Shown: positions 32,377-57,026 of the stretch, piece after piece | How positions within the stretch are numbered: position 1 is the first letter of the stretch | Layout: each line of letters opens with the position of its first letter | Source: Tsuneonella rigui | Lineage (GTDB): Bacteria > Pseudomonadota > Alphaproteobacteria > Sphingomonadales > Sphingomonadaceae | Length of the DNA: 64,000 bases | Reading direction: 5' to 3' | Assembly (NCBI RefSeq): GCF_003958625.1 | Contig: NZ_RSEL01000005.1 | Coordinates: 186,001-250,000, forward strand | Notes under the pieces: model-generated | The model's database searches: none | Seen by the model: only the letters and a program-made list of their open reading frames with translations | Told to the model about the DNA's origin: nothing | Program-made: the position numbers and the translations under genes

Positions 32377-32820
32377 TCAGCCCTGTTCGCCCACTTGCTC
32401 GACGTGTGCGATGAAGGCGGTGAGCTCGGCGATCGCCGAATCGATATCGGCGCGCTGCTCTTTCATCTTCTCGATGTGCTCGCGGCATTTCTCGATCGTG
32501 ACGCGGCGCTGTTCGACCCGCCCGTCGCCGAGATCGTACAGATCGATCATCTCGCGGATTTCGCCGAGACTGAAGCCGACGTTCTTCGCCCGCATGATCC
32601 ACGCGAGCCGTGCGCGGTCACGCTTCGAATAGATGCGCGCGAGACCCACCCGGCGCGGGGCGATGAGTCCCTCATCTTCGTAGAAGCGCAAGGCGCGGGC
32701 GGTGCAGCCGAATTCTTCGGTCAGGTCGGAGATCGAGAACTGCTCGCGCTCAAGCCGGTCGGGGCGTTCGAGGTGAGCGCCCTGATGGGCTGCTTCGGCA
32801 TTGCGCGCGGGTTCGGCCAT
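32377..32820 (-). CDS. MerR-family regulator upstream of the acyl-CoA dehydrogenase
   Basis: 147 aa one-component regulator with an N-terminal winged helix FSISDLTEEFGCTARALRFY near residue 28-47 and a coiled coil (EKCREHIEKMKEQRADIDS). It lacks the C-terminal Cys pair used by metal sensors, and resembles LiuR-type MerR proteins that control branched-chain or fatty acyl-CoA degradation genes. Placement directly before an acyl-CoA dehydrogenase supports that role. A regulator gene at the head of the operon suggests autoregulation; no operator was located with confidence. Confidence 0.85.
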   Translation of the reverse strand: MAEPARNAEAAHQGAHLERPDRLEREQFSISDLTEEFGCTARALRFYEDEGLIAPRRVGLARIYSKRDRARLAWIMRAKNVGFSLGEIREMIDLYDLGDGRVEQRRVTIEKCREHIEKMKEQRADIDSAIAELTAFIAHVEQVGEQG

Positions 32821-47663: not shown

Positions 47664-50018
47664 TCAGCCGATCGGCATACCGGGCGGCACGGTGGGAAGG
47701 ACTTGGCGGTCGGCCAGCGCCGCAGCGAGCGCCTCCCGGTCGGTCAGCAGTGCGGCAAGACCGCGGCGCCAATTGCCCTCGTCGCTCAGCGCCGCCGACA
47801 TGCCGAGGTACTTCGCCCAATGCGCCAGGCGGCCGTCGATCTGTAGCGCAATGCTGCGCGACAATTCGGGCCGCCGCGCCGCTTTTGCGAGCGAGAGCGC
47901 GGTCATGGTGGCGATCCGCCGGCCGACGGCGCTCTCGATCGCGACCTTGTTGGCATTGTCGAGCAACCGTGTGGCGAGCGCATCGACCGAGGGGATCGCG
48001 GCGTCGGCCTCATGCTGCATCTCGAGCCGGTTGAGCCGCTGCGGATCGAGCAGGTTGTCGAGCACCTGCACTGCGCCGATCTCGGTCGCGCGCAGCGTGT
48101 CGAACACCGGCCCACCCGCGGTCGGCATGATCTCGATCTGCGTGGCGTAGTCGCCGTCGTCGCCCTCGCCGTACGACAGCAGCGGCTGGAGGCGCGCGGG
48201 TACGGTCAGCCCATCGACGGAAAGCGCGTTCATCAAAGCATCGAGGGCCGCGTTCTGCTGCGCGGCCGGGACGGTGGTCACCGGCACGTTGTCGCCGACT
48301 AGAGCACTAGGCGTAGCAACCCCGCCGAGCGACTTCGCGGCAGCCTCGACCTGATAGCGGTGCAGCAGCCAGATCGGCACGAACGCACGGCGCAGGCTCG
48401 CCATGTCCTGCCCGTCGGGCACGGCATTGGCATCGAACCGTGCGAGCGCCGCCTGCCGCGCCGCCATGACGCGGCCCAGCTCTGCGACGGGATCGGCCGC
48501 ATCGTCCCACAGCGCGCCTTCCGGGTTGCCGGTCGAGATCGGGCGCGAATCGTTGTCCGACACGAACCGCAGCCCCTTGGCCTGCGCCTCCTGCGCAATA
48601 TGGCGAGCCGCCTCGTCGGTCGGCGCGTAGAGATAGCGGACGGTGAACTTGTCCCACTCGCCGATGCCGGCGCCGTAGGCATCGCTGAGGTCGATCTTGC
48701 CGCCGGCCAGCCCGATGCGCGGCGCGGGGTAATCCATCACCGAATAGCGCCCCTGCGTGCTCGCCGCGAAATTGTGCTGAAAGCCGAGCGTGTGCCCGAC
48801 CTCGTGGGCGCCGAGTTGGCGGATGCGCGCGAGCGCCGCCGCGACCGGATCGTTCGGATCGCCGCTATCGGTCAGGCCTGCCCCGACCAACGCCTGGAAG
48901 ATCAGCACGTCCTGCCGCGCCCGGAGCGAATCGAGCATGACGCTGCCCTTGAGGATTTCGCCGGTGCGCGGGTCGTAGATGCTCGATCCGTACGCCCAGC
49001 CGCGGGTCGCGCGGTTGACCCAGTTGACCACGTTGTAGCGCATATCGAGCGGGTCCACGCCCGCCGGTAGTTCCTCCACGCGGAAAGCATCGATGTACCC
49101 GGCGTCGTCGAACGCCTGCGCCCACCAGCCAATGCCCTCGATCAGCGCCTGGCGGATTGCTGGCGGCGCGGCGGGATCGACGTAGTAGACGATCGGCTCC
49201 TTGACCCGCGAGCGGGCGGCGGTGGGATCGACCTTCTCCAGGCGGTGCCGCAGTGCCACCTTGCCGAGCATCGAGCGCCCCAGCGGCGCGCCGAAATCGT
49301 ATTGCGGCAAGCTGATGATGTAGTCGTAGGGATCGTGCCGGACCGGCATCGGATCGGCCGGCAGCCGCACCAGCGAATGGCGCACCCACAGCGAAATGTC
49401 CGAGCCCGTCGGCGAGACATTGCGCAGCGACGCCGACGGCTTGTCCGAGGCGAAGCTGAGCAGCGCGGAGAACTCGACGTTGTCGGGGAAGCGGCGGATG
49501 CGCGAGGGATCGGCAACCGAGCGATTGGCGATCAGCGCGTAGCCGTCGCCCAACCCTTGCGCGAAGCCGAAGTGATCCATCGCCAGGAACGGCGCGAAGT
49601 CGAAGGTGAAGCTGCCGTCCTTGTTGGTCGCGGCGACGTCGCCCACCCAAAGCGTCGCGTTGGAAAAGCTGTTCGCGACCGACTGTTGCAGCGCGTCCGG
49701 TCCATTCGGCGCGACGAAAGTGGTGTTTTCCAGCTCCGCGATCACCTTGGCGCCCGCGCGGCGGAAGCGGATGATCCCGTTGCGCAAGGGCGCCCCGCGA
49801 TCGACCCCGGTTGCCGAGGAGCCGATGCCGGTCTCGATCTGCGCGACGTAGAGATAGCGCGCGGCGATCCCGTCTTCGCCGGGCGCCGGCAGGGTGAGGA
49901 CGATCTTGCCGTCTTCCTGGCTGGCGCTCACCGGCACCAGCGAGTCCTCGGCCAGCACCGGCGCGGAGATCGCCGCGGTCGCCAGCAGCGCCGCCAGAAT
50001 CGTCTGCCTGATCATCAT
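47664..50018 (-). CDS. Large exported zinc metalloprotease (metzincin)
   Basis: 784 aa with a signal peptide (MIRQTILAALLATAAISAPVLA). The metzincin zinc site HEVGHTLGFQH is at residues 405-415, with the Met-turn SVMDYP near 428. Long N- and C-terminal domains flank the catalytic core, as in the DUF5117/DUF5118-type zinc-dependent metalloproteases of Gram-negative bacteria. The ATG pair at 50018 has the ribosome site AAAGGGAGGGA. Substrate unknown; a periplasmic or outer-membrane peptidase is likely. Confidence 0.92.
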   Translation of the reverse strand: MMIRQTILAALLATAAISAPVLAEDSLVPVSASQEDGKIVLTLPAPGEDGIAARYLYVAQIETGIGSSATGVDRGAPLRNGIIRFRRAGAKVIAELENTTFVAPNGPDALQQSVANSFSNATLWVGDVAATNKDGSFTFDFAPFLAMDHFGFAQGLGDGYALIANRSVADPSRIRRFPDNVEFSALLSFASDKPSASLRNVSPTGSDISLWVRHSLVRLPADPMPVRHDPYDYIISLPQYDFGAPLGRSMLGKVALRHRLEKVDPTAARSRVKEPIVYYVDPAAPPAIRQALIEGIGWWAQAFDDAGYIDAFRVEELPAGVDPLDMRYNVVNWVNRATRGWAYGSSIYDPRTGEILKGSVMLDSLRARQDVLIFQALVGAGLTDSGDPNDPVAAALARIRQLGAHEVGHTLGFQHNFAASTQGRYSVMDYPAPRIGLAGGKIDLSDAYGAGIGEWDKFTVRYLYAPTDEAARHIAQEAQAKGLRFVSDNDSRPISTGNPEGALWDDAADPVAELGRVMAARQAALARFDANAVPDGQDMASLRRAFVPIWLLHRYQVEAAAKSLGGVATPSALVGDNVPVTTVPAAQQNAALDALMNALSVDGLTVPARLQPLLSYGEGDDGDYATQIEIMPTAGGPVFDTLRATEIGAVQVLDNLLDPQRLNRLEMQHEADAAIPSVDALATRLLDNANKVAIESAVGRRIATMTALSLAKAARRPELSRSIALQIDGRLAHWAKYLGMSAALSDEGNWRRGLAALLTDREALAAALADRQVLPTVPPGMPIG

Positions 50019-50125
50019 TCCCTCCCTTTCCATCTGCTTAGCGCGGAGGGAGGCGCTGTCATCTTCCTTTCGCGCGAGTTGGGGGCTAAGGGCCGCGGCC
50101 TGTCCCCCACCATCCGGAGTTACCG

Positions 50126-51226
50126 ATGGGTTTCCGCTGCGGAATCGTCGGCCTGCCCAACGTCGGCAAGTCGACGCTGTTCAACGCCCTCACCGAAACG
50201 CAGGCCGCGCAGGCCGCGAACTATCCGTTCTGCACGATCGAGCCGAATGTCGGCCAGGTCTCGGTGCCGGACGAGCGTCTCGACAAGCTGGCGTCGATCG
50301 CCGGCAGCGCCAAGGTCATCCCGACCCAGCTCGGCTTCGTCGACATCGCGGGCCTGGTGAAGGGCGCGAGCAGGGGCGAAGGCCTCGGCAACCAGTTCCT
50401 CGGCAACATCCGCGAAGTGGATGCGATCGTGCACGTCCTCCGCTGCTTCGAGGACGACGACATCCAGCACGTCGCCAACAAGGTCGATCCGATCGCCGAT
50501 GCCGAAGTGGTCGAGACCGAGCTGATGCTCGCCGACCTCGAAAGCCTCGAAAAGCGGGTCCCTGCCGCGCAGAAAAAGGCGACCGGGGGCGACAAGGAAG
50601 CCAAGGTCATGGCGAGCGTGCTCGGCCAGGCGCTCGATCTGCTGCGCGAAGGCAAGCCCGCGCGCCTGACCGAGCCCAACGGCGACGACGAAGCGCGGGT
50701 GTTCGAGCAGGCGCAGCTCTTGACCGCCAAGCCGGTGCTCTATGTCTGCAACGTCGCGGAGGACGAAGCGGCCGAAGGCAACGCGCTGTCGGCGCAGGTC
50801 TTCGCCAAGGCCCAGGCGGAGGGTGCGCAGGCGGTAGTGATCTCCGCGGCGATCGAGAGCGAGCTGGTCGCCATGCCGGCCGAGGAACGCGGTGAATATC
50901 TCGAGGCACTCGGCCTCACCGAGAGCGGTCTCAGCCGCGTTATCCGGGCGGGCTACACCCTGCTCGGCCTCAAGACCTTCTTCACTGCCGGCCCCAAGGA
51001 AGCGCGAGCGTGGACCTTCCCCTCGGGTGCCAAGGCGCCCCAAGCGGCGGGCGAAATCCACTCCGACTTCGAACGCGGCTTCATTCGCGCCGAGACGATC
51101 GCCTTTGACGACTACGTGGCGCTGGGCGGCGAAAGCGGCGCGCGCGAAGCCGGCAAGCTGCGCCAGGAGGGCAAGGAGTACCAGGTGCAGGACGGCGACG
51201 TGATGCTGTTCAAGTTCAACGTCTGA
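50126..51226 (+). CDS. ychF: Ribosome-binding ATPase/GTPase YchF
   Basis: 366 aa Obg-family P-loop protein. G1 is GLPNVGKST at residues 9-17, followed by FVDIAGLVKGASRGEGLGN (G3), NVAEDE (the altered G4 that favours ATP) and the C-terminal TGS-like domain GAKAPQAAGEIHSDFERGFI. It is divergent from the metzincin gene with 107 bases between starts. YchF binds ribosomes and responds to stress in other bacteria. Confidence 0.97.
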   Translation: MGFRCGIVGLPNVGKSTLFNALTETQAAQAANYPFCTIEPNVGQVSVPDERLDKLASIAGSAKVIPTQLGFVDIAGLVKGASRGEGLGNQFLGNIREVDAIVHVLRCFEDDDIQHVANKVDPIADAEVVETELMLADLESLEKRVPAAQKKATGGDKEAKVMASVLGQALDLLREGKPARLTEPNGDDEARVFEQAQLLTAKPVLYVCNVAEDEAAEGNALSAQVFAKAQAEGAQAVVISAAIESELVAMPAEERGEYLEALGLTESGLSRVIRAGYTLLGLKTFFTAGPKEARAWTFPSGAKAPQAAGEIHSDFERGFIRAETIAFDDYVALGGESGAREAGKLRQEGKEYQVQDGDVMLFKFNV

Positions 51227-51276
51227 GGCACCAATCGCCGCTCCACCCGTTCCCTCGCGAAACGGGGAGAACGTAG

Positions 51277-52074
51277 ATGGCGGTCGATAAATCGCAGGGC
51301 TTCATCACCTTGGTGCGGCTGGGGTACGCCGCGCGCGGAGTGGTCTACATTCTCCTCGGTTACCTCGCCCTCAGCACACAGGGTGAGGCGCGCGAAGGCG
51401 CCTCATCCGTGTTCGATTATCTGCAGGAAGTTCCCCTCGGCAGCGTCATCCTGTGGCTCGTTGCGCTCGGTCTGTTGGCCTACGCGGGCTTCAAGCTGGT
51501 CTCGGCGATCGGCGACATCCAGCATCGCGGGAGCAAGCCGAAGGGCGTGCTCAAGCGCATCGGTGACGGCGCCAGCGGTGTCGCGCACCTGTTCCTAGCC
51601 TATGCCGCGTATCAATTCGCGACCGGCGCTAAGCACGCGGCTGAAGGGGGACAGAGCCAGCAGATGGCGGGATCGGTGATGGACTGGAGCGTCGGCGGTT
51701 TCGTGCTCGGAGTCGTCGGGCTGGGCTTCCTCGTCGGCGCGTTCATGCAGGCCAAGAGCGCGGTGACCGCCGACTTCATGAAACACATCGATGGCCGGGC
51801 TCCCACCGGTGTCGAGGCTGTCGGCCGCGCCGGCAGCGCTGCGCGAGCGGTGGTGTTCGCGCTGATCGGCTGGTCGCTCGTGCAGTCGGCCTGGCTGTCG
51901 CAATCGGGCAAGGTCAAAGGCCTCGGCGAGGCCATTCTGGCCCTGCGGGACAATGGCGTGATCTACACGCTCGTTGCTGTCGGTCTGCTGTTGTTCGGCG
52001 TCTTCAGCCTGATCATGGCGCGGTACCGGGTGATCCCCGACATTCATCACGGCGATCTCAAGCCCAGGCTCTAG
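51277..52074 (+). CDS. DUF1206 membrane protein
   Basis: 265 aa with six membrane segments arranged as three repeats of a two-helix DUF1206 unit. Repeat starts are recognisable as LVRLGYAARGVVYILLGYLA near residue 12, GASGVAHLFLAYAAYQF near 98 and GSAARAVVFALIGWSLVQS near 190. Function unknown. It follows ychF by 50 bases and ends four bases inside the convergent MerR gene. Confidence 0.9.
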   Translation: MAVDKSQGFITLVRLGYAARGVVYILLGYLALSTQGEAREGASSVFDYLQEVPLGSVILWLVALGLLAYAGFKLVSAIGDIQHRGSKPKGVLKRIGDGASGVAHLFLAYAAYQFATGAKHAAEGGQSQQMAGSVMDWSVGGFVLGVVGLGFLVGAFMQAKSAVTADFMKHIDGRAPTGVEAVGRAGSAARAVVFALIGWSLVQSAWLSQSGKVKGLGEAILALRDNGVIYTLVAVGLLLFGVFSLIMARYRVIPDIHHGDLKPRL

Positions 52075-52457
52075 TCGAACGCAGCGAGGATCGGGCACGG
52101 CCCCGCCCCGCCCTTTGCGCAGTCCTTTGCCAGCTTGGCGAGCGCGGCGCGTGCTTCGGTCAGCTCAGCGATCTTCTCGTCCAGAGCCGCTATCCGTGCC
52201 CTCGCCATGTCGCGCGCGCGCGGGCGGTCGTCGGCGCGGTCGAGATCGATGAGCTCGGCGATCTCAGACAGAGTAAAGCCGGCAGTTTGCGCCTTGCGGA
52301 TGTAGCGCAAGCGGCGGACGTCGTCGGCACCGTAGTGACGCCCGGCCGTAGCACTGCCTTGCGGTGCATCGAGCAGGCCTTTGCGTTGATAGAAGCGGAC
52401 AGTCTCCACCCCGACACCGCCCTTTTTTGCGAGCTCTGAAATTCTGAGCGGATTCAC
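52071..52457 (-). CDS. CueR-like MerR-family metal-responsive regulator
   Basis: 128 aa regulator. The winged helix is LRISELAKKGGVGVETVRFY (residues 4-23), followed by a dimerisation coiled coil. The metal loop KDCAKGGAGPCPILAAFD has Cys113 and Cys121, eight apart as in the copper sensor CueR (Cys112/Cys120); the third Cys of mercury MerR is missing. The GTG at 52457 is the start, next to a divergent MerR-type promoter at 52461. I infer that it senses a soft metal, Cu(I) or Ag(I) rather than Hg(II), and activates the neighbouring exported genes. Confidence 0.82.
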   Translation of the reverse strand: MNPLRISELAKKGGVGVETVRFYQRKGLLDAPQGSATAGRHYGADDVRRLRYIRKAQTAGFTLSEIAELIDLDRADDRPRARDMARARIAALDEKIAELTEARAALAKLAKDCAKGGAGPCPILAAFD

Positions 52458-52460
52458 CTC

Positions 52461-52492
52461 TTGACTCCGTACTATGGTACGGAACCTATATA
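52461..52492 (+). promoter_or_regulatory. MerR-type promoter/operator driving the glutaredoxin operon
   Basis: A -35 box TTGACT (52461-52466) and a -10 box CTATAT/TATATA (52486-52492) are 19-20 bases apart, the overlong spacer typical of MerR-activated promoters. The spacer holds a perfect dyad TCCGTAC-TATG-GTACGGA (52466-52483), very close to the classical mer/cue operator half-sites. The transcription start would fall at about 52499, practically on the ATG at 52500, so the message may be leaderless. Confidence 0.82.
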
Positions 52493-52499
52493 ATGGGCC

Positions 52500-53240
52500 A
52501 TGAGCACGAACAAGACCGCGAGCCTGACCCGCATGGTCATGCCGAACCACACCTGCCCCTACGGCACCAAGTCCAAATGGCTGCTGGAGAAGCACGGCTA
52601 CCGCGTGGAGGACCACTGGCTCACCACCCGCGAGGAAGCGGACGCCTACAAGCGTGAGCATGGAGTGGAAACCACGCCGCAGACTTTCATCGATGGAAAG
52701 CGCATCGGCGGCTACACCGATCTCCGCGCGTTCCTCGGCAAGCCGCTGCCTGCCGCTGGAGCGACCAGTTACACACCGGTGCTGGTGGTCTTTGCCGTTT
52801 CGGCACTACTTGCGCTGGCAGCCAGCTTCCACGCATTCGGCGCAGCGCTGACCGTGCAGGCCGGCGAATGGTTCATCGCCTTCGCCATGGTGATCCTCGC
52901 CATGCTCAAGCTGCAGGATGTCGAGAAGTTCTCCTCGATGTTCCTCGGCTACGACCTGCTGGCGCAGCGGTGGGTGCCCTACGCCTATGCTTACCCGTTC
53001 CTCGAAGCGGGTGCCGGCGTGCTGATGGCCGCGCACGCGCTCGACTGGCTGTCGATCCCCGTCGCGCTGTTCATCGGCACGATTGGCGCGGTCAGCGTGT
53101 TCTACGCGGTTTATGTGCAGAAGCGCGAGATCAAGTGCGCCTGCGTCGGCGGGTCGAGCAACGTGCCGCTCGGCTTCGTCTCACTCACCGAAAACCTCGC
53201 GATGATCGCCATGGCGGTCTGGATGCTAATCAACCTTTGA
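52500..53240 (+). CDS. Glutaredoxin-MauE-like membrane fusion protein
   Basis: 246 aa. An N-terminal glutaredoxin-like domain (residues 1-80) has TCPYGTKSKWLLEKHGY, that is a CPYG site with a single active Cys instead of CPYC, and the TTPQTFIDGKRIGGYTDL glutathione-binding motif. Four or five membrane helices follow in a MauE/DoxX-like domain, with a final KCACVGGSSNVPLG Cys pair. It probably supplies thiols at the membrane, in a step of metal handling or disulfide transfer. First gene of the metal operon, directly under the MerR-type promoter. Confidence 0.82.
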   Translation: MSTNKTASLTRMVMPNHTCPYGTKSKWLLEKHGYRVEDHWLTTREEADAYKREHGVETTPQTFIDGKRIGGYTDLRAFLGKPLPAAGATSYTPVLVVFAVSALLALAASFHAFGAALTVQAGEWFIAFAMVILAMLKLQDVEKFSSMFLGYDLLAQRWVPYAYAYPFLEAGAGVLMAAHALDWLSIPVALFIGTIGAVSVFYAVYVQKREIKCACVGGSSNVPLGFVSLTENLAMIAMAVWMLINL

Positions 53241-53256
53241 ACCGGAAAATTTCCCG

Positions 53257-54675
53257 ATGACCCGCTACCTTCTTGTTGGAACCGCACTGCTTGCCATCGC
53301 CGCGCCCGCCGCGGCGCAGCAGCACGATCATGGCGCAATGCAGATGCCGGCACCGACGCCTGGCCCGGCGCCCGCCGAGGAGAGCTGCACGATCACCCTC
53401 GAAGGCAAGGGCAGCATGGCGTGCAGCGCCTCGGCCAATCCGCCGCCTATGGATCATTCCAAGATGGACCACGGCATCATGGCGCACGGCGCCGTAGAGC
53501 CGATGGACCACTCGGCGATGAATTACGCCACGATGGCTCACGCCATGGGCGGCGAAGGCTCCGGCACAGCGCGTTTGCCGGCCAACGAAGTGATGAATCA
53601 CGGCGCGCTGATCCCGCTGGGCGGCGATGCGAGCCTGATGCTCCACGGTTTCGTCTGGCCGGTCTACACCGATCAAAGCGGGCCGCGCGGCGACGACAAG
53701 TTCTACGTCCAGTCGATGGCGATGGCGACCGTCGGCGGCAGCTTCGACGGCGGTCGATGGATCGCGCGCACAATGCTCAGCGCCGAGCCTGCCATGCGAC
53801 ACGACGGCTACCCCAACCTGTTTGCGACCGGTGAGGTCGCTTACGGAGAGCCGCTGGTCGACCGGCAGCACCCGCATGATCTATTCATGGAATTGGCAGG
53901 CCGGATCGATCTCGATGTGGCGGACGGCACCAGCGTGTTTCTCTACGGTGGTCCGGTCGGCGAACCGGCGCTCGGGCCCAGCGCCTTCATGCACCGCGCC
54001 AGCGCGCGCTATAATCCCGAGGCGCCGATAACCCACCACTGGTTCGATTCCACCCACATCGTGTACGGCGTGGTCACTGGCGGCATCAGCGCGAAGAAGT
54101 GGCAGCTCGAGGCCAGCGCCTTCCGCGGCCGCGAGCCCGATGAATTCCGATGGAATATCGAGACTCCCAAGCTCGATTCGTGGAGCGTGCGCGCCAGCTT
54201 CGCGCCCTCGCCCGCGTGGCTGCTGCAGGCGAGCTATGGCCAGATCGATGAGCCCGAGAAGCTACATCCCGGCGAGGACGAGCACCGCACCACGGTTTCG
54301 GCGCACTACAACAACGGCCGTGGCCTTTCGGCAATGGCAGCGTTCAGCGCCAAGAACCGCGTGCCCGGCGATACGCTCACCGCCTGGCTCGGCGAGGTAA
54401 ACTGGGACCTGACCGAGCACCACACGCTGTTTGGGCGGATCGAGAACGTGAAGAACGACGAGCTATTTCCCGATCACGCCGATCCGCTGCACGACCAGCC
54501 CTTCCGCGTGACCAAGTTCCAGGCGGGATACGCCTACCGCGTGCCGCTCGGCCCCGTGAACCTCGCGCTGGGCGGAACCGTGTCGGCGTTCGCCAAACCC
54601 AAGGCGCTCGATTTCGCTTACGGATCGAACCCGATGGGCTACACGCTGTTCGCGCGATTCAGTTTCGGCGATTGA
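53257..54675 (+). CDS. His/Met-rich outer-membrane beta-barrel protein of the metal module
   Basis: 472 aa exported protein. The signal peptide ends AAPAAAQQ and is followed by a His/Met-rich segment (HDHGAMQMPAP, PPMDHSKMDHGIMAHG, MDHSAMNYATMAHAMGG) of the type that binds copper or silver in CopB/PcoB. From about residue 125 the sequence has alternating beta strands and ends with FARFSFGD, as in outer-membrane barrels; the barrel is not the known CopB one. It lies 16 bases after the glutaredoxin fusion. Confidence 0.8.
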   Translation: MTRYLLVGTALLAIAAPAAAQQHDHGAMQMPAPTPGPAPAEESCTITLEGKGSMACSASANPPPMDHSKMDHGIMAHGAVEPMDHSAMNYATMAHAMGGEGSGTARLPANEVMNHGALIPLGGDASLMLHGFVWPVYTDQSGPRGDDKFYVQSMAMATVGGSFDGGRWIARTMLSAEPAMRHDGYPNLFATGEVAYGEPLVDRQHPHDLFMELAGRIDLDVADGTSVFLYGGPVGEPALGPSAFMHRASARYNPEAPITHHWFDSTHIVYGVVTGGISAKKWQLEASAFRGREPDEFRWNIETPKLDSWSVRASFAPSPAWLLQASYGQIDEPEKLHPGEDEHRTTVSAHYNNGRGLSAMAAFSAKNRVPGDTLTAWLGEVNWDLTEHHTLFGRIENVKNDELFPDHADPLHDQPFRVTKFQAGYAYRVPLGPVNLALGGTVSAFAKPKALDFAYGSNPMGYTLFARFSFGD

Positions 54676-54698
54676 GCCTGACAGGGAGAATGCACACC

Positions 54699-54914
54699 AT
54701 GAGGAAGTATCTGATCGCCGGGCTCGCCCTGCTCACCGTTTCAGGCACCGCTTTCGCCGCCGACGCCGCCGATCCGAAGGAGAAGTGCTGCTGCTGCGAA
54801 AAGATGAAGGAGGACGGCAAGACCTGCTGTCCGGGCGAGGCCGAGGGCGATCACAAGGGCCACGACATGCATGGTATGCATGAGATGCCCACTCCGCCCG
54901 CGCCGCAGAAGTAA
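54699..54914 (+). CDS. Small exported Cys/His/Met-rich protein
   Basis: 71 aa: signal peptide MRKYLIAGLALLTVSGTAFA, then a mature region of about 50 residues with CCCC, CC, and the His/Met-rich GDHKGHDMHGMHEMP tail. The ATG at 54699 follows AGGGAGA by about nine bases; earlier ATG/TTG codons are possible. It looks like a periplasmic metal chelator or chaperone. Together with the preceding barrel and the CueR-like regulator it suggests copper/silver defence; the metal is inferred. Confidence 0.75.
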   Translation: MRKYLIAGLALLTVSGTAFAADAADPKEKCCCCEKMKEDGKTCCPGEAEGDHKGHDMHGMHEMPTPPAPQK

Positions 54915-54923
54915 GCCTTTAGA

Positions 54924-55385
54924 ATGCAGTACTTCGAGGACATCCCGGTCGGTGTGACCGCCAAGTTTGGTAACTATCCCGTCACCCGCGAAGAGGTGAT
55001 GGAGTTCGCCGCCAAGTACGATCCGCAGCCATTCCATCTCGATGACGAGGCGGCGGCCGCGACTCACTTCGGGCGCCTATCCGCCAGTGGCTGGCACACC
55101 TGCGCGATGACCATGTCGATGCTGGTCGAAAACCTGAAGCAGAACCGGCAGGCCGGGCTCGGCTCGCCGGGTATCGACAACCTGCGCTGGTTGAAGCCGG
55201 TCTATCCCGGCGACACACTGCGGGTCGAAAGCACCGTATTGGAGAAGCGTCGCAGCCAGTCGCGGCCCGAGATGGGCATCTTCAAGTCGCAGCTAACGGT
55301 GTTCAACCAGAACGACGAGCCGGTGATGCAGATGGTCTCCAACGGGCTCGTCCAGGTCCGCGATCCGGACGCGCCCGTAGAGTAA
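54924..55385 (+). CDS. MaoC-like hydratase/thioester dehydratase
   Basis: 153 aa hot-dog fold protein. Residues FAAKYDPQPFHLDDEAA near 28-44 contain the Asp/His hydratase motif (D-x-Q-x-x-H), and FGRLSASGWHTCAM follows, as in MaoC/PhaJ (R)-specific enoyl-CoA hydratases. It begins nine bases after the Cys-rich gene, so it may share the transcript, though its function seems unrelated. It converges with the M28 peptidase gene. Confidence 0.88.
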   Translation: MQYFEDIPVGVTAKFGNYPVTREEVMEFAAKYDPQPFHLDDEAAAATHFGRLSASGWHTCAMTMSMLVENLKQNRQAGLGSPGIDNLRWLKPVYPGDTLRVESTVLEKRRSQSRPEMGIFKSQLTVFNQNDEPVMQMVSNGLVQVRDPDAPVE

Positions 55386-55388
55386 CCC

Positions 55389-56993
55389 TCACTTTTCGTC
55401 TGGGTATTTCCAGACGAACGGCTCGGTCGTCGTCGGGCGGGTCGGCAGGGCCTGCGTCGGCAGAGTGTCCTTGTCGTTCGCTGCCGCCAGCAGCACGCCC
55501 GCCATCACCGTCGCCGCCTGACGCAGGTCGTCGGGACGCAGGTGATCGAACGTGTCGATGTTGGTGTGGTGGAGGCGCGAGAAATAATCGAGCGGGTCCT
55601 GCACGAACTGATACCCCGGCAGGCCGACGCGCTGCATGTACACGTGGTCGGTTCCGCCGGTCGGTGAAGCGACTAGTGAAGCCGCGCCCATCGCGTCGAA
55701 CGGCGTCAGCCACTTCTTGAGCAGCGAGTCTGCGCCCGCATCGCCTTCGGTGTGAATGCCGCGAATCTTGCCGCTGCCGTTGTCGAGATTGAAATAGGCC
55801 TTGAGCTGGCCGTATCCGGGCTTGGGCGTGATCGGCCACAGGTCGCTCCAGCGCGACAGCTCGGTCGGCTTGATCGCGTCCTCTCCCGCACGGCTGACGA
55901 GGTGCTGGCGGACGTACGCCAATGAGCCGAGCAGGCCCTGCTCCTCGCCCGACCACAGCGCGAAACGGATCGTGCGCTTGGGCCGCACCCCGAGTTGCTT
56001 GAGGATGCGCGCAGCCTCCAGCACGACGACCGTGCCGGCCCCGTTGTCCACCGCGCCATCGGCGGTCCACCAGCTATCGAAGTGCGCTCCGGCCATGACA
56101 TAACCGGCCTTGGGATCGGCGCCGGGGATTTCGCCGATGATGTTGTAGGCAGTCGAACTATCGGTGACGAAGCGCGAGTCGAGCTGGACCGACAGCGTTG
56201 GCGCCGGTCCGGTCGCCGCGAGGCGCGCAAGGCGACGGTAGTCCTCGGCGGCGATCTCGATCCCCGGCAGCGAGGGCAGATCCTGGAAGGTGTAGCCCGA
56301 GCCGTGGACCAATTTCCCGTCGCGGTACGACATCTTGGCCCAGGCGACCGCGCCTTCTTCCTTCAGGAAACGGTCGAGATCGTTGGCGAACCGGCGCCGT
56401 TCGATTCCGCGGTCGATCGCATCGGGATCGTAGTTGGGCAGGCTGAACTTATCGAGCTTGGCAATCTCCGTCGTGTCGAGCCGCTCGAATGGAGGATCGG
56501 TCGGCTCGTCTCCGGTGCCAGGCTTGCTGACCAGGACGATCTTGCCGGCGAGCTTGCCGCGGTAAGCAGCGAAGTGCTCGACCTTGTCCATCGGCGCGAC
56601 CACGACGGGCGCCTCGAGCGTGCCTTGGGTGCCGGGAGTCCATGCGATTGGGACCGCGGTGAGCGTGATCGGGCGCGGGGCGATCATGCGCACGCGGAAG
56701 TCATTCGCTTCCCACCCGGGGCCGAATTCGAACCCTTCCTTGTGGACGTTGGCGAGACCGATCTCGCCCATCTTGTCGACCGCCCAGCCCTCGGCCTTGC
56801 GCATATTGGGCGAGTTGGTGAGCCGCGGCCCGATCCGGTCGAGCAGGTCGTGCGCTGTCAGTTGGACCTGCGAGCGGTTCATGCCCTCATCGATGACGCG
56901 CGCGCTATCCCCTGCGTCCTGCGCGGCCGATGCCGCCGGAATGAGCGCAAGCGCCGCTGCGGCGAGAAGGCTCGCCTTGATCGGTCCAGTCAT
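55389..56993 (-). CDS. Exported M28-family zinc aminopeptidase
   Basis: 534 aa with signal peptide (MTGPIKASLLAAAALALIPAASA). The M28 co-catalytic zinc motifs are visible: AGAHFDSWW near residue 295, DGAVDNGAGTVVVLE near 305 with the bridging Asp, and ALWSGEEQGLLGS with catalytic Glu near 350; a PA-type insertion lies between about 130 and 280. The late GGTDHVYMQRVGLPG provides the last zinc-binding His. Probably a periplasmic or secreted peptidase (PGCP-like carboxypeptidase group). Confidence 0.92.
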   Translation of the reverse strand: MTGPIKASLLAAAALALIPAASAAQDAGDSARVIDEGMNRSQVQLTAHDLLDRIGPRLTNSPNMRKAEGWAVDKMGEIGLANVHKEGFEFGPGWEANDFRVRMIAPRPITLTAVPIAWTPGTQGTLEAPVVVAPMDKVEHFAAYRGKLAGKIVLVSKPGTGDEPTDPPFERLDTTEIAKLDKFSLPNYDPDAIDRGIERRRFANDLDRFLKEEGAVAWAKMSYRDGKLVHGSGYTFQDLPSLPGIEIAAEDYRRLARLAATGPAPTLSVQLDSRFVTDSSTAYNIIGEIPGADPKAGYVMAGAHFDSWWTADGAVDNGAGTVVVLEAARILKQLGVRPKRTIRFALWSGEEQGLLGSLAYVRQHLVSRAGEDAIKPTELSRWSDLWPITPKPGYGQLKAYFNLDNGSGKIRGIHTEGDAGADSLLKKWLTPFDAMGAASLVASPTGGTDHVYMQRVGLPGYQFVQDPLDYFSRLHHTNIDTFDHLRPDDLRQAATVMAGVLLAAANDKDTLPTQALPTRPTTTEPFVWKYPDEK

Positions 56994-57026
56994 GAACGAT
57001 GCTCCCCTGTTGGTTCTTTGTTGCCC

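Follow-up and report, generated by a model that had tools for sequence, protein, structure and literature searches.

The window analyzed here, a stretch of 64,000 nucleotides (nt) from contig NZ_RSEL01000005.1 of Tsuneonella rigui, contains a small operon that raises a simple question: which metal does it answer to, and what might its products do? The positions of the open reading frames (ORFs) confirm four genes, with a MerR-family regulator gene on the minus strand facing three co-directional plus-strand genes. These encode a glutaredoxin fused to a MauE domain (Grx-MauE), an outer-membrane barrel, and a small exported Cys-rich protein. A preliminary description of this DNA had proposed a soft-metal defense operon of the cell envelope under a MerR-family switch. 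We find support for that proposal, with conserved relatives elsewhere, where the operator is paired with the regulator and the parts stand in copper contexts. Most likely, the operon is a module against copper stress of the Cu(I) type, with a proposed Cu(I) switch and envelope products, for which we infer DNA binding, metal, chemistry, and direction of transport. The metal is very probably copper, judging from the genes found next to all three exported-side genes in other genomes.

A regulator of mixed character

The regulator gene (52071 to 52457, minus strand, GTG start, 128 amino acids) matches Pfam PF13411 and PF09278. Its two cysteines named in the preliminary description, Cys113 and Cys121, are the only ones in the protein, and they lie in a loop of the form C113-x7-C121-P-I-L. 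Where MerR has Cys82 and CueR has Ser77, the regulator has Arg78, in a gap-free alignment and 35 residues before Cys113. In MerR-family sensors, a residue contributed by the other subunit sets the choice of ion charge, namely CueR Ser77 and MerR Cys82, and Ser77 has been linked to selectivity for +1 ions (passages in PMC9909328 and PMC11591864).

Both the loop and the Arg are conserved. From 58 divergent regulator/Grx-MauE pairs, we dropped five with regulators shorter than 115 residues (L088, L092, L097, and L105 at the locus end, and L119, which loses the loop), leaving 53 full-length regulators, including that of the window, which were aligned with MerR, CueR, and CadR. The motif C-x7-C-P-[IL] is present in all 53, and Arg occupies position 78 in 52 of them, the exception being an annotated CueR with Asn (L128). 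The cyanobacterial locus L125 (39% identity) falls under the Grx score filter and is thus outside the 53; its regulator lacks the C-x7-C loop.

The preliminary description called this regulator CueR-like, which is true of the loop and of little else. Hidden Markov model (HMM) scores are below cut-off for both TIGR02044 (CueR; 81.4 bits versus 147.4) and TIGR02051 (MerR; 105.5 bits versus 150.85). The closest solved relatives are the mercury MerRs 5crl (85 bits) and 4ua1 (62 bits), followed by CueR (56 bits), and approximately residues 1 to 68 share 50 to 55% identity with plasmid mercury MerR genes among the matches listed. A tree built from 38 sequences over 129 columns places the window regulator, along with 24 sampled relatives, in one group with three proteobacterial Hg MerRs (ultrafast bootstrap [UFBoot], 100), and the CueR clade is separate (UFBoot, 97), with the window regulator outside it. 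Subgroups inside the MerR group have UFBoot values of 53 and 99; the Arg regulators form a single clade at only 53, so a strict sister grouping is not implied. Judged from its sequence, the regulator is no true CueR, and we rejected a CueR orthologue on the basis of the tree, the cut-off, and the operator described below. Because alignment, tree, and operator say so, we regard it as a regulator with a CueR-length loop, a mer-like lineage and operator, and a selectivity residue of neither type.

An operator that travels with the regulator

Sequence inspection and a genome pattern search identified, between the divergent genes, an element that the preliminary description did not report: a -35 hexamer, TTGACT, followed by the perfect palindrome CCGTAC-TATG-GTACGG (52461 to 52482). 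We call it mer-type after the form of the mer operator. A probable -10 element, TATATA, can be read at 52487 to 52492 (plus strand), which gives a 20-bp spacer. The expected transcription start is about at the ATG of the Grx-MauE gene, and the mRNA is therefore possibly leaderless. Apart from its own reverse read, the operator has no further copy in the genome within 3 mismatches.

The strict operator is present in 44 of the 53 loci with a full-length regulator, near variants are present in eight, and a CueR-type site is present in one (L128). Among the 30 best Grx-MauE loci in 199 family genomes, a looser operator pattern occurs at all 15 with the regulator and at none of the 15 without it. 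A further 17 loci were picked by hand, with an overlap of ten with the 30, and give 8 of 9 and 0 of 8, respectively. At four loci (L041, L046, L100, and L110), an Arg regulator and operator stand directly before the barrel gene with no Grx between, evidence that the barrel, and not just Grx-MauE, is under their control.

The glutaredoxin-MauE fusion and its copper-type neighbors

The first gene of the operon (52500 to 53240, plus strand, 246 amino acids; SmGrx3 family) encodes, as first described, a CPYG glutaredoxin fused to a membrane domain. The domains are an HTCPYG glutaredoxin (PF00462; E, 3.9e-7) and MauE (PF07291; E, 1.8e-13), and Cys19, Cys213, and Cys215 are invariant across 81 distinct sequences. 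An AlphaFold2 model (mean predicted local distance difference test [pLDDT], 80.5) has membrane helices after the glutaredoxin domain; the CxC region is one of its least certain parts. The loop holding the CxC pair contains three K/R residues; because this loop is K/R rich, the positive-inside rule makes a cytosolic position of the pair likely.

To which genes is Grx-MauE adjacent elsewhere? We hand-picked 17 annotated plasmid neighborhoods from 299 records, leaving out the unannotated L115; L002 and L003 were found via the barrel and L198 via the regulator, and because of this selection the set is not a random one. A copper- or CueR-annotated gene is found in 11 of the 17 (L117, L118, L119, L121 to L125, L128, L129, and L198). 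Four more have heavy-metal ATPase or DUF305/DUF411 genes (L002, L003, L116, and L127); DUF305 and DUF411 are copper linked. None of the 17 has a mer operon. MerP, MerT, MerC, and MerA fragments searched against 190 loci match solely at the HMA domains of P-type ATPases (L121, L122, and L129), and the same fragments have no match in the window at E values up to 1e-3. Two plasmids have a CcdA gene near Grx-MauE, and a third has a DsbD-domain gene there.

Other copies have different surroundings. In L175 to L179 and others of L138 to L159, Grx-MauE sits between DUF1206 and MaoC/MutL with no regulator, operator, or barrel, and these copies may be under another control.

A porin-like barrel behind three kinds of control element

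The second gene (53257 to 54675, plus strand) encodes a 472-amino-acid barrel protein with a signal peptide by inspection. The His/Met-rich stretch that had been noted is real, with 8 His and 11 Met among the 95 residues from 21 to 115. No Pfam or NCBIfam family matches over cut-off; the weak profile matches below it are Porin_4 (16.2 bits; cut-off, 27) and CopI (14.3 bits; cut-off, 200), and there are no sequence relatives in the PDB at E values up to 1. In the model (mean pLDDT, 75.5; residues 1 to 97 and 185 to 207 below 50), we counted 16 long strands by hand, and residues 116 to 470 match solved general porins (Foldseek best E, 3.7e-11). In the 50 matches listed by VIA-align, 273 to 306 residues align with Z values of 21.9 to 23.6 and root mean square deviations of 3.1 to 4.2; porins listed among the structural matches include OmpF, OprP, and OprO. 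Such a match of a predicted fold shows no function.

CopB/PcoB is an outer-membrane copper protein with a Met/His-rich N-terminal stretch and a barrel. The T. rigui protein has no match to PF05275 (CopB) at E values up to 1, and PcoB/CopB is not among the structural matches listed; with no Pfam match, a CopB homologue was rejected.

The case for copper comes instead from what precedes the barrel gene in other genomes, here the best 80 of at least 246 loci. Grx-MauE is upstream in 26 of the 80, 25 of these with a regulator match. Many of the others have a short leader ORF with CxxC and a PP-rich C terminus just upstream of the barrel: 38 of 50 loci without Grx, versus 8 of 26 with it (Fisher P, 1.9e-4). 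Four loci with less than 600 nt upstream were excluded from this count, and one of the 39 leaders found by script (L036) was removed by eye as a false match. The same rule finds a leader at 31 of 771 random anchors, and a stricter rule finds one at 10 of 771. Two of the 12 leaderless loci, L041 and L046, have an Arg regulator instead. The leaders are likely a CutF-like leader family of sphingomonads. A third arrangement is seen in L109, L111, and L114, where a CueR-type regulator (by eye, with Ser at the selectivity position and C-x7-C) is divergent from the operon of the barrel. The L109 operator, TTGACCTTGACATGATGTCAGG, is CueR type and resembles the P-type ATPase promoter of the window's own genome, and the operator of L111 and L114, TTGACCTTCCAG(T/C)TACTGGA, is also CueR type. 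In Pontibacter, a copper P-type ATPase gene lies two genes before the barrel. Because the barrel occurs behind three kinds of control element, i.e., Arg regulators, CueR with CueR-type operators, and CutF-like leaders, it appears to have a copper role.

The leader ORFs, found in L009 to L082 (e.g., L012:5569-5886 and L065:5521-5874), often read HxCIGC around the CxxC and often have PPPR in the Pro-rich end. Scanned against Pfam, three of them, along with three longer ORFs and three small proteins from plasmids, had no match over cut-off, and DUF2946 was not listed. In L143 (G188:C3:62442-63995), the barrel survives only as pieces with stop codons, beside an uninterrupted Grx-MauE gene and a full-length regulator gene.

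The small Cys-rich protein and the copper island

The third gene (54699 to 54914, plus strand) encodes the 71-residue protein, exported to judge by a signal peptide found by inspection and rich in Cys, His, and Met. The CCCC and CC runs previously described are Cys30 to Cys33 and Cys43 to Cys44. It has no Pfam or NCBIfam match. The same genome has a paralog (L170:8558-8797) directly before a CopA-type oxidase gene, and similar small proteins are found near copper-type genes in L002, L003, L118, L128 (weak), L174, and L180. In L002, these surroundings consist only of the Grx/barrel/regulator module and DUF305. The small-protein loci are no independent survey, because all were fetched via Grx, barrel, or regulator searches. 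A match in L119 is a leader-like ORF rather than a small Cys protein. Three Sphingobium plasmids have a further ORF, Cys bearing and PPP rich at its end, which separates Grx-MauE from the small protein (L118:6760-7116, L002:7111-7455, and L003:7046-7384).

The preliminary description stated that no P-type ATPase, CopA/CusA pump, MerT, or MerA is nearby. This is true for the window, but the genome has a copper island on contig C29 (L170; C29:92000-111500) with a P-type ATPase, a CueR-clade regulator, the paralogous small protein, a CopA-type oxidase, a CopB-like gene, DUF305, and PepSY. The only over-cut-off E1-E2 ATPase and CopA-type oxidase of the genome are both on C29 rather than on the window contig. 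Over-cut-off RND pumps are on other contigs than that of the window, and there is no MerA over cut-off anywhere in the genome. The C29 regulator is in the CueR clade, and the window regulator is therefore not the genome's sole such sensor. The island also has another MerR-type regulator, accompanied by a CDF gene, and an RND pump lies further along at C29:114100.

One assembly of exchangeable parts

The components had been thought to act together, which is only partly true. Half of the 30 best Grx-MauE loci have the regulator, but the other half do not; Grx and barrel are often found without each other; and BLAST finds no match to the small protein in the best 80 barrel loci. In the 199 family genomes (hand count), full-length Grx-MauE is present in 98 and the barrel (>200 bits) in 34. 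Where a genome has both, they lie within 3 kb of each other in 13 of 18 cases.

Relatives keep these genes in a chromosomal slot, ychF-DUF1206-[variable]-maoC-mutL, which can be occupied by Grx alone, by the barrel alone, or by both. In L181 (G078), a CutF-like leader precedes the barrel, and a Grx-MauE gene that has no regulator stands apart from it in the same slot. The window operon is one assembly of exchangeable parts.

Proposed mechanism and alternatives

How might such an assembly work? In our model, the divergent MerR-lineage regulator would bind the single palindromic site at 52461 to 52482. Cytosolic Cu(I), and probably also Ag(I) or Au(I), would be held between Cys113 and Cys121, and this would turn the operon on. 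By the rule of the family, the regulator would activate the promoter, whose spacer is 19 to 20 bp, by distorting its DNA. Arg78 removes the third thiol and could offset the negative charge that a Cu(I) site with two thiolates carries. Grx-MauE may handle thiols and disulfides, or Cu(I)-thiol species, at the membrane by means of one Grx cysteine and the CxC pair. In the periplasm and outer membrane, copper may be bound or buffered by the small Cys/His/Met protein and by the barrel, which carries the His/Met stretch. The operon would work alongside the separate ATPase/CueR/CopAB island of this genome.

Several observations weigh against this model. Both regulator and operator are mercury type, and the regulator has no CCHH tail, a feature that PMC6899792 discusses for CueR with respect to Hg(II). 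One regulator locus, L189, lacks the operator pattern. Grx-MauE is often found without such a regulator (15 of the 30 best loci), and two of the 17 plasmid neighborhoods (L120 and L126) have no metal gene besides the regulator and Grx. Co-occurrence of Grx-MauE and barrel is near chance (18 genomes observed versus approximately 16.7 expected), and part of their linkage comes from the core slot, from ychF to mutL, that the two share.

For the metal itself, the chief rival, by lineage and by the missing CCHH tail, is Hg(II). The regulator could respond to it, because its lineage and operator are of the mercury type and it lacks that tail, and one can picture a mercury (or mercury/gold) module in which two thiols sense Hg(II) and the exported proteins sequester it. 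The grouping with proteobacterial Hg MerRs, the N-terminal identity to plasmid mercury MerRs, the mer-type operator, and the higher HMM score for MerR than for CueR (105.5 versus 81.4) all fit such a module. However, the third Hg ligand, Cys82, is replaced by Arg in 52 of the 53 regulators, the 190 loci (HMA-domain matches aside) and the window contain no mer genes, and related barrels stand behind CueR-type regulators and operators. We dropped a mercury system for want of mer genes and of Cys82, and we hold the mercury module to be improbable.

It is a more serious possibility, though one we would not favor, that the operon is an envelope thiol-redox module for which copper is a mere trigger. 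Grx-MauE would then move glutathione reducing power across the membrane; that the remaining two products bind metal would be secondary. The fusion itself with its three invariant cysteines, the presence of Grx-MauE, with neither regulator nor barrel, at that core slot in several relatives, and the nearby CcdA and DsbD-domain genes would all make sense. The annotated copper genes in 11 of 17 plasmid neighborhoods weigh against it, and a CxC pair probably placed in the cytosol, judging by its K/R-rich loop, is a poor fit with a simple periplasmic reductase. The exchangeability of parts in the slot and the lack of a genome-wide association would also suit a chance assembly with a shared promoter and no shared pathway. 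Yet all the parts have copper-type neighbors elsewhere, including on plasmids outside the slot, and we very much doubt that chance brought them together.

The copper reading has a wider version, which we offer tentatively and rate as slightly short of an even prospect. A MerR clade with ancestry and operator in common with mercury MerR may sense Cu(I)-type ions, with Arg at the Cys82 position and a loop shorter by one residue, and may control a copper-handling, non-CopB porin family that occurs behind three copper-type switches. Whether Cys (divalent ions) or Ser (monovalent ions) stands at one position explains which metals MerR sensors choose; if our reading is true, Arg is a third solution at that position. 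A conserved Arg group that has copper neighborhoods and falls with the mercury regulators makes the Cys/Ser rule directly testable by single-residue swaps. It would also suggest a likely copper role for SmGrx3-type proteins and for an unnamed porin family found in many sphingomonads. Among the matches listed from the open-access literature, titles and abstract openings state neither an Arg at the MerR selectivity position, nor a copper link of Grx-MauE, nor a sphingomonad copper operon of this kind.

Genomic surroundings

The operon is compact, with gaps of 16 nt between Grx-MauE and the barrel, 23 nt between the barrel and the small protein, and 9 nt between the small protein and a MaoC-like gene (54924 to 55385, plus strand; by Pfam and the slot order of relatives, the conserved flank of the slot). 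The MaoC-like gene is possibly reached by read-through from the operon, but we do not count it toward the metal function. An Rfam scan of positions 50000 to 57000 of the window gave zero matches. Elsewhere in the window are a second MerR-type gene (32542 to 32739, minus strand; PF13411, 60 bits) and a gene for a large protein (47664 to 50033, minus strand) with a zinc-metalloprotease-like HEVGHTLGFQHN motif seen by eye.

Comparison with known systems

The operon resembles several known systems in part. Like CueR (TIGR02044; PDB 1q05 and 4wlw), it has a divergent MerR-family switch, a C-x7-C loop ending in CPI, and a copper-gene context, but the switch scores below the CueR cut-off, has Arg for Ser77 and a mer-type operator, and lies outside the CueR clade. 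With MerR (TIGR02051; PDB 5crl), it shares the UFBoot 100 grouping, a similar DNA-binding domain, and the type of operator palindrome; it differs in Arg for Cys82, a loop one residue shorter (C-x7-C versus C-x8-C), a score below cut-off, and the lack of mer genes. The barrel and its Met/His-rich N-terminal stretch in a copper context recall CopB/PcoB (PF05275), but PF05275 does not match, the listed structural matches are porins, and the genome has its CopB-like gene separately on C29.

The idea of a small exported copper chelator is shared with bufferins, the copper-chelating peptides made by MNIO enzymes (PMC12452194). In contrast, no MNIO/DUF692 enzyme is found among the window genes scanned and the small protein has no family match; with MNIO missing from those genes, we rejected a bufferin. 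As in CutF/CruR leader regulation (passages in PMC9973294 and PMC9426467), exported short ORFs with CxxC and a Pro-rich C terminus precede the barrel in many Grx-less relatives, whereas the window operon has no leader, its Grx and barrel genes being just 16 nt apart. SmGrx3 (SMa0280) of Sinorhizobium meliloti is likewise a CPYG glutaredoxin fused to MauE; the passages of its description cited here (PMC6315971) concern redox and symbiosis and do not mention a copper operon. A pSymA copy has both the operator and a divergent regulator of the kind described here.

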